Source: Halalkalicoccus sp. CGA53
GTDB lineage: Archaea; Halobacteriota; Halobacteria; Halobacteriales; Halalkalicoccaceae
Assembly: GCF_036429475.1 (NCBI RefSeq)
Contig: NZ_CP144125.1
Location: forward strand, 1,674,001-1,738,000
Direction: 5' to 3'
DNA length: 64,000 bases
In this document: in pieces, positions 58,224 through 63,771 of the stretch
How the letters are laid out: every line of letters starts with the position of its first letter
Position numbering within the stretch: the first letter of the stretch is position 1
Translations under genes and position numbers: made by a program
The notes under the pieces: generated by a model
The model's input: only the letters and a program-made list of their open reading frames with translations
The model's database searches: none
Told to the model about the DNA's origin: nothing

Positions 58224-59075
58224 ATGGACGGCCGCGCACGGGCACCGGCAGCCGGGACGATCTGCAACGCGCTCGCCACCGGGCGCGGCTCGGCGTTCGC
58301 CATCGACGGCGTGGAGACGACCGCGACCGTCTCCCTCGAACCCGGTACCGAAATCGAAGGGGAGATAGCGGAGGATCCGGAGGCCGACACGGCGCTGATC
58401 GAACGGTGTGTCTCGCTCGCGGTCGAACGGTACGACGACGAGTCGCTCGGAGGTCTCGTGAGAACCGAGAGTTCGATCCCGATGGCGGCGGGGTTGAAGA
58501 GCTCGAGCGCGGCGGCCAACGCGACGGTTCTCGCGACGTGTGACGCGCTCGGGATCGAGGTCGATCGCACGGAGGCCTGCCTGCTCGGCGTGCGGGCCGC
58601 TCGCGAGGCGGGCGTGACGGTCACCGGGGCGTTCGACGACGCCTCGGCGAGCATGCTCGGTGGGGTGACGGTCACCGACAACGCCCGCGACGAACTGCTC
58701 GCACACGAGACCGTCGACTGGGACGTGCTCGTCTGGACGCCCGAGGAGCGAGCGTTCAGCGCCGAAGCGGACGTCTCCGCCTGCGAGCGGATCGCCACGA
58801 TCGCGGAGCTGGTCGAGGAGCTCGCCCTCGCCGGGCGGTACGGCGAGGCGATGACGGTGAACGGACTCGCGTTCTCGGCCGCACTCGGTTTTCCCACCGA
58901 GCCGGCGATCGAGGCGCTGCCCGAGGCAGAGGGGGTCTCGCTCTCTGGGACCGGCCCGAGCGTGGTGGCGGTCGGCGACCGGAAGGCGTTAGGGGGAGTG
59001 CGTGAGCAGTGGGAAGAGAGGACCGGAACCACATGGCTGACGACCACACAGACGGCGGGGGCGAGACGGGGATGA
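58224..59075 (+). CDS. Archaeal shikimate kinase (GHMP superfamily)
   Basis: A 283-residue GHMP-type kinase, phosphorylating shikimate at the 3-OH in aromatic amino-acid synthesis; unrelated to bacterial AroK. The ATP-binding signature is SSIPMAAGLKSSSAAANATV. GVTVTGAFDDASASMLGGVT supplies a conserved loop and SLSGTGPSVVAVGD is the C-terminal glycine-rich motif. It overlaps the chorismate mutase gene, an arrangement typical of haloarchaea. Confidence 0.93.
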   Translation: MDGRARAPAAGTICNALATGRGSAFAIDGVETTATVSLEPGTEIEGEIAEDPEADTALIERCVSLAVERYDDESLGGLVRTESSIPMAAGLKSSSAAANATVLATCDALGIEVDRTEACLLGVRAAREAGVTVTGAFDDASASMLGGVTVTDNARDELLAHETVDWDVLVWTPEERAFSAEADVSACERIATIAELVEELALAGRYGEAMTVNGLAFSAALGFPTEPAIEALPEAEGVSLSGTGPSVVAVGDRKALGGVREQWEERTGTTWLTTTQTAGARRG

Positions 59076-59347
59076 ACCTGGACGAGCTACGCGAGGAGAT
59101 CCAGGAGATCGACCACGATCTCGTCGAACTCATCGCCCGCCGGACCTACGTCGCCTCCACCATCGCGGAGGTCAAGGCACGCGAGGGGCTGCCGACGACC
59201 GACGAGGGTCAGGAACAGCGGGTGATGGACCGGGCGGGCGAGAACGCAGAACGGTTCGACGTGGAGTCGAACCTGGTGAAGGCGATCTTTCGGCTACTGA
59301 TCGAACTGAACAAAGTAGAGCAGAGACAAGCTACCGAAAACGAGTGA
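59033..59347 (+). CDS. Chorismate mutase (AroQ class)
   Basis: A 104-residue all-helical enzyme converting chorismate to prephenate. The AroQ core is LDELREEIQEIDHDLVELIA, then RRTYVASTIAEVKAREGLPT, QEQRVMDRAGENAERFDVES and AIFRLLIELNKVEQR, with catalytic Arg/Lys and Glu/Gln in these helices. The start is ATG 59033, or ATG 59072, which overlaps the shikimate kinase stop by ATGA; the shorter form retains the whole core. Coupled to shikimate kinase. Confidence 0.92.
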   Translation: MADDHTDGGGETGMNLDELREEIQEIDHDLVELIARRTYVASTIAEVKAREGLPTTDEGQEQRVMDRAGENAERFDVESNLVKAIFRLLIELNKVEQRQATENE

Positions 59348-59370
59348 CTGCGCCCCGACGAGGTGCGAAC

Positions 59371-59391
59371 CGAGTAGCCGTGCTCTACTCG
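59371..59391 (+). terminator. Hairpin downstream of chorismate mutase
   Basis: CGAGTAG-ccgtgct-CTACTCG has a perfect 7-bp stem and a 7-nt loop, 24 bp after the stop. Likely a transcription-end structure. Confidence 0.4.
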
Positions 59392-59732
59392 GACAGTACT
59401 CGACGTCATCGGTCCCGTCGGTGGAGTGATCGCACACGAAGGGTTCGAACTACTGACGAGGGGAAATCGACTCCGAGCGAGCCGAGACTGGCAGTACTCG
59501 AGAGAGACCGGAGTCGGGTGATGCAGATCACCGAGTGACGATCGGTTCGGCCGCCAGTGGCGCGGACGGCTGAACGACCGGCACGACGGCCGGGTGTCGA
59601 GTACCCGACCCAGGGGAGCGAGCACGTGGTTGGCGAGGGACTCGATCGGCCGAGTCACCGGAGGGGGAGGTGAGGAAGGTGGCTCTGACGGAAGTGGGGA
59701 GCGTGCCAGGGGAGGGTCGAACCCGTGCAGGC

Positions 59733-59921
59733 GCCTCTGACACCACGTAACACTGCTCCCCGGATACCGATAGAGTATCAGCACAATAAGTATTCGTACT
59801 GACTGTAGTTCGTCCGTTCGTGTCACTATCCTCATTGAAACTCATTTCGCACGTCACCACTCGAACAGACGAACAAAGAGACGTGATACCGTTTCGAGCA
59901 GTGTTACGTGGTGTCAGAGGC
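59733..59921. mobile_element. MITE-like element with perfect 26-bp terminal inverted repeats
   Basis: The left end (59733-59758, beginning GCCTCTGACACC) is the exact reverse complement of the right end (59896-59921, ending GGTGTCAGAGGC) over 26 bp. A second, inner pair GTTCGTCCGTTCG (59808-59820) and CGAACAGACGAAC (59862-59874) matches at 12 of 13. There is no coding capacity. Length, perfect TIRs and AT-richer core fit a non-autonomous miniature transposon, though an obvious target-site duplication is not seen. Confidence 0.6.
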
Positions 59922-60091
59922 ACGTACTCTCTTGCTCGACCGGTCGTAAGTGAGGGATGGATACCCCCCACTCGACCGTACTCGGTTGTGCTACCGCCAT
60001 GTCAATAGCGATTGACGCTAGAAGGTGGAAACGGCTGTTACGCACCACCCTCAGCATCTAGCCTACGCCGCTCTCTACACGATCGATGGAC

Positions 60092-63000
60092 CTACGCTAT
60101 GGTGATCTCGCTTTCCTCGAATAGCACCTCGAACACTGCCCGTTGGGCCGCCCGGAGGTGGTTGCTGAACGTCGGTTGGGAGATGTCCAGTGATACGGAG
60201 ACGTCTCGCCCCGTTCGCACTCGTGGCGACTCGAAGAACCCACTCAGAAACGCCGTATGGAGGACTGCCTGTTGTTTCGGGGTCATACGTTCTTCACAGA
60301 TCGCCCGAAACGTCTGTCTGGTCTTGAGCGGCCGATCGCGACCACGACGGGCGAGCAGCTCGAGATCGGGAGCGAACTGCTGCATGTCCGTGACGAACCG
60401 ACGAGCGCTGGTCGTGTGAGGGATATCTACGACGGCGGTTGCGGTCCCTTCTTCGATGGTTAACGTGCGCACGATCGCGTGCTGCTCGGCGAACCGTGAT
60501 GCGAGCGCTGGCTCGGATACCCGTGCTCTGAACAAGGAGTGGCTCCCGTGGGTTGCGATACACGTCAGTTCCTGTATCGCGGCCGCCTCCTCACCGGCAG
60601 TCAGGAGTTCCTCCACCGAAGCTCCAGCAACGGTGAAGAAGACGTCCGGTTCACCGGCCGTTCGGTGTACGAGTCCCTCGAACTCTATCGTACAGTCGGT
60701 CTTCCGTACGAGCTGGCACAGTGGTGCTCTCGACTCGCGGGACCGTACTGTAAGCTCGACGACGCGGTCCGTCTGAAGCGTCTCTCTCGTTTCTATCGCG
60801 TTTATCGCGTGCGCTATCGTTCTCCCGAGCTCTTCGAAGACGACGAAGTCACGCTCGTCGGGCTGTGGCTGACGCGCGTAGATCGAAAGCACCCCGTAGA
60901 GGACCTCGTCGTAGACGAGTGGAACGGAAATACACGCGCGAGCGCCCCGCTCCAACGTAGCCTCGCGCCGGGGAGTGAACTGTGTCTCTGTAGCGATATC
61001 CGACACGACCTGTATCCGGTGTGAGAGCGCTGCCGTGGCGATCGGGCTCCGTTCCGTCGACTGTTCGTCGATTGAGACCGAGAGATCGTCGATGTAGCTG
61101 CTATCGACCCCCGCCCACTCTCGTGGAAGGATCGTGTCCGTGACCGCATCCCGGTCACCGATCCAAGCGAACTCGTACTGCTTCGACTCCGCCAGTCGTT
61201 CGCAAACGGCTCGGTCGATCGCTGGAAGACTATCTGCCTCAACTAGTGCCTCAATGATCTCCCGAATGAGACCGTTGAGACGGTCGAGGCGTGCCAGTTC
61301 CTCGTTCTGCTGTGCTAACTGCTGTTCGCTCGTCGCACGATTCCACGCCGCTTCGATGGTCGCTGCGAGCGTTTCAGTGAGATCGACCGTTACCTCGTCG
61401 ATCATTCCGGTTCCAGTGGTGCCTGCACAGATGGCGCCGTATCTACCAAGCGGCACGATTACACAACTCCGAAGCTGAGAGTTCGAGGGAGTTTCAGTCT
61501 CAGAGGCGTATGTGAGGTCGTTTTCAATCGCTATCTCGTCGTTGATAAATGCCTGCCACGCTCGCTCGGAGAGATCAGTAGGAAGATCGATCGCATCGGA
61601 GCTTGTCTTCGATTCTGCGTGACTGGTGTACTGCTGGAACTCACCGGTAGTCTCGTCATAGCACCAAAGGGCTGTGTACTCGAGATCAAGTGCGGTCCGG
61701 GCGAGTGAACCAGCGTGGGTAGCGATCGCCGTTGTGTCAGCCCTCATCAGCTCCTGACTTGCCTCGTTGAGCCGTTCGAGAGCGTCGTTCGCTCGTGTCA
61801 ACGATTTCTCGGCGTGAGCTCGTTCGACGGCCTCCCACGTACGTTCAGCCGTCTCCTGAACCATTGCGACCTCAACCTCCGTCCACTCTCGAGGAGTATA
61901 CTGGTTGACGACTACGTACGCCGTGCATCGGCAGTTTTTGATTACCGGTGCGGCCATCAACGAACGAACACCGTATTCCAGATAGGAGGCGCGTTGGTCC
62001 TCACTGAACTTCGGATCGGTCCCCAGATCGTCTACCACCACGGGATCACCCTCGTGGAGTGTCTCGAGGATGTGCTGGCCGAAGTCGTCGAGGTGATGCT
62101 CACCGAGAGCAGACGGAATGTCGCCACGAAGGTATTCGTTACGGACCAGCACCCTGCCGTCCTCGGAGAGGACTTCGCAATAGTTCGCTCGATCGGCTTG
62201 TAGCTGCTCGCCGAGAACGCGGGCGGCCTCCTGTTGCACCTCCACAGGATCGGCGAGTGGACGGATCGTGTCGGTGAGTTCGACACGGAAAGCATCCAAC
62301 TCTGCTCGTTCACGCAGTTCTTCTTCCCTACGCTTGCGTTCGGTAATATCCTGGAAAATCACCTCGACTTGCTCGTCTGTTCCATCTCCCGCTTGGAATG
62401 CGTATAGCTCTAAGATTCGCCCCTCGGTTTCGAGTTCGCGCTCGAATCGAACCGCGTCCCCGGTTTGTACGACGGTATCGTACGTCTCGAACCACTCTTC
62501 GGACAGTTCTGGAATCGCTTCCCGCATCGTCTTTCTAACCACGTCATCGATACCGGATTGGGCTGCAAAGGCGGGGTTCGCCTCTACGTACTGGAAATCA
62601 ATTGGCTCGTCCGGGTCGGTATCGACTTTCTCGAGGACGCAAAAGCCCTCGGTTATCGACTTGAACAGGGTCCGATAGCGTTCCTCGCTCTCACGTAATG
62701 CAGTTTCGGCACGTTTGCGCTCGGTAATATCTCTGAACAGCACGCCGAGTTTCCGCTCCTCGTTTTCAAGTCGGAATACTAATATCTCTAGATAGCAGTC
62801 GTTCCTCTCAAGCTCATACTCGAACTGAACCGATTCCCCGGTCTGTAAGATGGTGTCGTAGAGGTCATACACCTCCTCCGACTCGCCCGGAAACGACTCC
62901 CGGATAGTCGTTCCAACCACGTCGCCCCCTCCCGTGTGCCTCTCGAAGGCCGGGTTGGCCTCTACGTACCGAAAGTCGATCGGCTCGCCCGGGTCGGAGT

Positions 63001-63364
63001 CGATCTTCTCGACGATGCAGACCCCCTCATCGATCGACTCGAACAACTGACGGAAGGTAGGTTCCCCGACGTGTCTCCTCCGTTCGGACCCGGTGCTATC
63101 GGTGACGGTTCCCTCCGGGTCGAATCCACCAGTGTACTCGGTCTCGCACTCTCGAAGCGGTCGCCACCAGACCCGGCCCTTCGCCCCTATCTTCTTCGTT
63201 TCGAGAGGCCCCTCTTCGACGAGCGCGTCGAGTTTGTTGTAGATAGTTCGATCCGTACAGTCGAACCTCTCGGCCACTTCGGGGGTCGTCAACGGCGTGC
63301 CTGGCGGTGCGAGCTGATCAACCACCTCGAGGACGGACGACGGAGAGGGTACCGAGGAACTCAT
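60092..63364 (-). CDS. PAS/GAF sensor with Bat-type HTH (bacterio-opsin-activator-like regulator)
   Basis: A 1090-residue one-component regulator. Order: N-terminal winged-helix (residues 5-65, VAERFDCTDRTIYNKLDALV), two tandem PAS domains (about 95-220 and 225-350, each ending DITERKR), GAF domains (about 355-530, 555-700 and 715-870), then a Bat-like sensor region and a C-terminal HTH_10 (TPKQQAVLHTAFLSGFFESP, then SVSLDISQPTFSNHLRAAQR). The two PAS units are close duplicates. No kinase domain, so it acts directly on DNA. Base composition in the middle is more AT-rich than the neighbours. Minus-strand gtttttct 26 bp upstream is a TATA. Confidence 0.93.
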   Translation of the reverse strand: MSSSVPSPSSVLEVVDQLAPPGTPLTTPEVAERFDCTDRTIYNKLDALVEEGPLETKKIGAKGRVWWRPLRECETEYTGGFDPEGTVTDSTGSERRRHVGEPTFRQLFESIDEGVCIVEKIDSDPGEPIDFRYVEANPAFERHTGGGDVVGTTIRESFPGESEEVYDLYDTILQTGESVQFEYELERNDCYLEILVFRLENEERKLGVLFRDITERKRAETALRESEERYRTLFKSITEGFCVLEKVDTDPDEPIDFQYVEANPAFAAQSGIDDVVRKTMREAIPELSEEWFETYDTVVQTGDAVRFERELETEGRILELYAFQAGDGTDEQVEVIFQDITERKRREEELRERAELDAFRVELTDTIRPLADPVEVQQEAARVLGEQLQADRANYCEVLSEDGRVLVRNEYLRGDIPSALGEHHLDDFGQHILETLHEGDPVVVDDLGTDPKFSEDQRASYLEYGVRSLMAAPVIKNCRCTAYVVVNQYTPREWTEVEVAMVQETAERTWEAVERAHAEKSLTRANDALERLNEASQELMRADTTAIATHAGSLARTALDLEYTALWCYDETTGEFQQYTSHAESKTSSDAIDLPTDLSERAWQAFINDEIAIENDLTYASETETPSNSQLRSCVIVPLGRYGAICAGTTGTGMIDEVTVDLTETLAATIEAAWNRATSEQQLAQQNEELARLDRLNGLIREIIEALVEADSLPAIDRAVCERLAESKQYEFAWIGDRDAVTDTILPREWAGVDSSYIDDLSVSIDEQSTERSPIATAALSHRIQVVSDIATETQFTPRREATLERGARACISVPLVYDEVLYGVLSIYARQPQPDERDFVVFEELGRTIAHAINAIETRETLQTDRVVELTVRSRESRAPLCQLVRKTDCTIEFEGLVHRTAGEPDVFFTVAGASVEELLTAGEEAAAIQELTCIATHGSHSLFRARVSEPALASRFAEQHAIVRTLTIEEGTATAVVDIPHTTSARRFVTDMQQFAPDLELLARRGRDRPLKTRQTFRAICEERMTPKQQAVLHTAFLSGFFESPRVRTGRDVSVSLDISQPTFSNHLRAAQRAVFEVLFEESEITIA

Positions 63365-63771
63365 GCGTCTCGATACCTGTAACCGGAGAAAAACCTTCCG
63401 TTGACGGAAACCGCCGGTGTACCCCGGACCTCCAGACCCGTCGTCGGCACTCGCCACCCCGAGACCACCCTCGCCGGTACGTGGGTCGCGTTCGAGCGCG
63501 GTCGAGTCAACACACCGATATCGTGGCCGTCTCGTACCAGTGAGTTCCACGGACGAGAACCGATCGGGCCAGTCGGGCCGGTGGCGAAGGACATTGTACA
63601 ACGTCAATTCTCAACACGTACCGGCTCGTTCTCCATCGACTGCCGCCGGTCTGGTGTCGAGTCGTGTAGATCGATCCGACGACAGACACGAGCACTCCGT
63701 GGACGAATCGATCCGAGCGGTGACCGGACACACCCACTACCCTTATCCGTCGTGGTCGTGACTCGCACGTA
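63365..63771. other. Intergenic region, no gene recognised
   Basis: This 407-bp stretch holds the TATA-like element of the Bat-type gene (near 63390) and that of the methyltransferase gene (cccttatccg, about 63741-63750). Nothing else recognisable was found. Confidence 0.5.

Follow-up and report, generated by a model that had tools for sequence, protein, structure and literature searches.

The question raised by this locus of Halalkalicoccus sp. CGA53 is what kind of element lies between two perfect 26-bp inverted repeats in a gap that holds no gene. A mobile element, a structured transcript, an invertible switch and a local duplication are all weighed below. The window, by which we mean the whole stretch of 64,000 nucleotides that was analysed, is part of contig 2 of a genome of 4.04 Mb that is 99.7% complete. 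A preliminary description, made from the letters of the window, had proposed either a MITE mobilised in trans or a structured RNA with a long outer stem.

Structure and composition

The element covers 189 bp (59733-59921), with arms of 26 bp and a spacer of 137 bp. The left terminal inverted repeat, GCCTCTGACACCACGTAACACTGCTC at 59733-59758 on the forward strand, was located by a repeat search and pairs at 26 of 26 positions with the right terminal inverted repeat at 59896-59921 on the reverse strand, its exact reverse complement. Both the perfection of the ends and their coordinates are thus as first described. The non-coding core (59759-59895, assigned to no strand) is AT-rich compared with the left flank, has no Pfam match and no Rfam match above the gathering score, and folds at the level of shuffled sequence. 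Nested within the core is an inner dyad, read from the sequence, whose left arm GTTCGTCCGTTCG (59808-59820, forward strand) agrees at 12 of 13 positions with the right arm CGAACAGACGAAC (59862-59874, reverse strand), and the one mismatched position would form a G-U pair in a reverse-strand transcript.

Base composition predicts that 64 kb hold about 8e-8 perfect inverted repeats of 26 bp whose spacer is at most 400 bp, and the arms are real and far beyond chance, as had been stated. In a sample of 464 kb, made up of the 64-kb window and 400 kb taken at 20 places in its genome, the element is the sole perfect inverted repeat with arms of at least 20 bp and a spacer of at most 400 bp. The next best are hairpins of 17-19 bp with loops of 0-4 bases, and pairs of 16-17 bp with long spacers. 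The inner dyad, also confirmed at 12 of 13, is mildly unusual, a dyad as good occurring in only 3 out of 400 sequences of equal length drawn from a first-order Markov model.

The GC content of the element is 49%, against 66% over the 385 bp on its left side and 56% over the 170 bp on its right side. The earlier statement that the element is AT-richer than its flanks therefore applies strongly on the left and more weakly on the right. Lack of coding potential was borne out, as the open reading frames tested across the element and its core, which are mechanical calls, gave no Pfam match; open reading frames in the gap were also considered as a decayed transposase and were rejected, having no Pfam match. 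A search for target duplications of 3-12 bp, with the end positions shifted by up to 6 bp, found none, in agreement with the preliminary description. A 2-bp GC is possible as a target duplication, but it follows from the palindromic end and consequently says nothing.

On the reverse strand, the sequence adjoining the element (59690-59732) reads CACGGGTTCGACCC and resembles the T arm of a tRNA. Neither a tRNA nor a tmRNA is predicted at the element site, and the resemblance is probably due to chance.

A perfect repeat of this kind might also come from a local inverted duplication, in which a template switch, in replication or in repair, placed an inverted copy of 26 bp at a distance of 137 bp, with no mobile element or function involved. 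One step would then explain the perfect repeat without copies, target duplication or partner element. Left unexplained are the nested dyad, with its 3 in 400 occurrence by chance, and the fact that the left arm coincides with the composition step; furthermore, no other such inverted repeat is present in the 464 kb, though such events would be rare, and no relative retains the flanking DNA. We consider this origin rather unlikely, and give it the same weight as the lineage-specific transcript discussed below.

Genomic context

To the left of the element lie genes for a GHMP-family kinase and for a type II chorismate mutase (59036-59347, forward strand; Pfam CM_2, E 1.2e-18), the latter being the last gene of a conserved block. 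To the right, a gene for a Bat-type regulator with Pfam BAT, GAF, HTH_10 and PAS domains occupies 60092-63508 on the reverse strand, its start being approximate. The two genes are convergent, with the chorismate mutase stop at 59347 and the 3' end of the Bat-type gene at 60092. The gap between these gene ends is gene-free, as had been noted, and the element is upstream of no gene.

Nine further family members keep the left gene block up to about position 59323, with a DNA identity of 90% and 88% in the two genomes of the same genus. In all nine, conservation ends at the end of the chorismate mutase gene and the DNA beyond is unrelated (59348-63700 in the window). Judged by these comparisons, the gene block is conserved and the locus that follows it, 59348-63700, is variable. 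The Bat-type regulator has a best match of 36% in the two genomes of the same genus, whose completeness is only 61% and 70%, together with matches of about 60% in several members of the family's other genus, a distribution that suggests horizontal transfer or loss. Since DNA similar to the element is absent behind the orthologous chorismate mutase gene in the nine family members, its presence here fits a recent gain. No empty site was seen, because no relative keeps the flanks on both sides. A single copy conserved in synteny had been named as an argument against a transposon; the element is indeed a single copy, whereas conservation is lacking in the nine family members.

In bacterial invertible promoters (fimS-like switches and invertons), perfect inverted repeats enclose a short segment. 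The element shares this layout, and its arm length, perfection and spacing are like theirs. A site-specific recombinase would, in such a switch, flip the 137-bp core between the 26-bp repeats, the orientation of the core being known from the assembly alone. Unlike fimS-like switches, the element has no gene start on either side, both neighbours ending towards it, and there is no tyrosine recombinase gene nearby, the nearest being more than 180 kb away. A switch is accordingly the least probable of the readings weighed here, and very improbable in itself.

Search for related sequences

The preliminary description had suggested that a MITE would show itself by multiple dispersed copies, in the same genome and in other Halobacteria, and by an insertion sequence with the same ends. 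The searches gave neither. The 189-bp element is present as a single copy in its own genome, in which no further 26-bp end was found with up to 3 mismatches. A 15-bp end with up to 2 mismatches gave 20 matches in the same genome, including both arms, versus 9 for a reversed control pattern; those other than the arms are scattered singly, and no paired diverged 15-bp ends marking a parent insertion sequence were found. End searches at 26 bp and 15 bp would overlook a partner that has only a few terminal bases in common with the element.

No relatives of the element were found in 59 near genomes, and a 20-bp end with up to 2 mismatches was absent from 392 Halobacteriales genomes. The whole 744-bp intergenic stretch was also compared with these 392 genomes, with two candidates scored per genome, and no relative of the element was obtained; the weak matches of the stretch fell outside the element and were rejected. 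Neither the whole element nor the end by itself matched any plasmid or phage, and viral contigs gave no match with 21-mer, 18-mer and paired-end patterns. Two kinds of match were taken as chance. A 16-mer of the end has 17 exact matches in GTDB species genomes, all of them bacterial, and a 27-bp match in a distant haloarchaeon (E 0.003) concerns the core only, in a genome without a copy of the end.

Folding and possible transcription

The structured RNA of the preliminary description would, in its most plausible form, be a lineage-specific transcript that folds into a branched RNA closed by the 26-bp stem, most stable when read from the reverse strand. It might be an independent RNA or lie in the 3' region of the Bat-type gene, and perhaps a transcription boundary between the convergent genes, a position that suits such a role. 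The whole element folds far better than shuffled sequences on both strands, with z-scores of -9.35 (forward) and -9.11 (reverse), in line with that proposal. The inner 137 nt alone, however, fold at shuffle level (z -0.63 and -1.08). The fold signal is therefore attributed to the 26-bp arms, and folding by itself is no argument for an RNA.

A transcript would also account for the nested dyads. In the reverse-strand fold, the inner dyad forms 13 continuous pairs and is joined by an extra helix of 10 pairs, aided by G-U pairs; this predicted pairing hints weakly at an RNA transcribed from the reverse strand, no more. Against a transcript, no Rfam family scored above its gathering score, the one CRISPR-repeat match (E 0.66) being at chance level. 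A covariance model of the reverse-strand structure, which was built from one sequence and reaches only moderately diverged relatives, recovered the element itself only among 146 Halobacteriales genomes, an extra match at E 0.86 again being at chance level. By inspection, no recognisable TATA box or T-run stands beside either end, and a scan for sigma-70 promoters and T-runs, which is a bacterial scan unsuited to archaea, gave nothing. Behind related Bat-type genes, and behind the chorismate mutase genes of relatives, no comparable long inverted repeat was found, only repeats of 13-14 bp.

As neither sequence relatives nor structural relatives were found in the genomes searched, a conserved RNA is unlikely and a lineage-specific one is possible. 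We regard a lineage-specific transcript in general as rather unlikely. The narrower proposal of an undescribed family appears improbable; its RNA would be branched, restricted to this lineage, closed by a 26-bp stem and read from the reverse strand between the convergent genes.

Comparison with known elements

MITEs have ends in common with a transposon, are often flanked by target duplications and occur repeatedly. Like haloarchaeal MITEs, the element is short and non-coding and has terminal inverted repeats. Three of the four features by which it was compared with them are absent, namely dispersed copies, ends common to an autonomous transposon and a target-site duplication, the last being frequent in MITEs and not universal. 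Of the two proposals in the preliminary description, what stands is the anatomy of a transposase-free element and the strong fold of the whole; the copies, the partner and a fold of the core do not.

The small mobile repeats (SMRs) of Haloquadratum walsbyi are short and bounded by inverted terminal repeats (ITRs), have no target duplication and carry ITRs that match no transposon, their mobilisation being unknown (PMC3119063). SMR-A, of about 110 bp, has many nearly identical copies and targets PATEs or IS605-type transposons, and one SMR-B is 80 bp long (PMC3119063). The element resembles SMR-A and SMR-B in being short and non-coding, in its prominent terminal inverted repeats and in its haloarchaeal host, and it shares with SMRs the lack of a target duplication and ends unrelated to a transposon. 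The mobility of SMRs is seen from repeated, near-identical copies that often lie inside mobile elements, whereas the element is a single copy. It also differs in its length of 189 bp and in lying outside any recognised mobile element, the comparison being one of description and not of sequence identity. At most, the element works like an SMR, and we file it neither as an SMR nor as a MITE.

Discussion

The reading that we prefer, tentatively and at somewhat less than even confidence, is a solitary, recently gained, non-autonomous element with terminal inverted repeats, MITE-like or SMR-like and without its mobilising enzyme. Being short and non-coding, with perfect terminal inverted repeats and a composition step, it has the anatomy of a mobile element that lacks a transposase. 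This anatomy, the single copy and the absence both of the element from the relatives searched and of a partner with similar ends are results; mobility, an enzyme and a recent arrival are what we infer beyond them. In the present lineage, the element would have inserted into the variable DNA that follows the chorismate mutase gene, and its 26-bp ends would be the recognition sites of a trans-acting recombinase or transposase. It is now probably stranded, as no element with such ends was found in its own genome, and the perfect arms may reflect how recently it arrived.

In favour of the lone-element reading are the perfect ends, arms beyond chance, the composition step on the left, a lineage-specific presence, the variable segment around it and the precedent set by the SMRs for such ITR-bounded elements in haloarchaea. 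Its single copy counts against it, because MITEs and SMRs are recognised by repetition, and so do the lack of relatives, of a target duplication, of parent ends and of an empty site.

Most likely, then, the element is a solitary remnant of a small mobile element and not a member of an active repeat family, and the known kind to which it belongs is that of short terminal-inverted-repeat elements in general. Such units in haloarchaea can, on this reading, stand alone, with no further copies, no target duplications and no visible partner, a situation similar to that noted for the enigmatic small mobile repeats of Haloquadratum. As no enzyme is known to mobilise such units, the element would matter more if it were found moving in sister strains. 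It would likewise matter more if it proved to be a discrete RNA.
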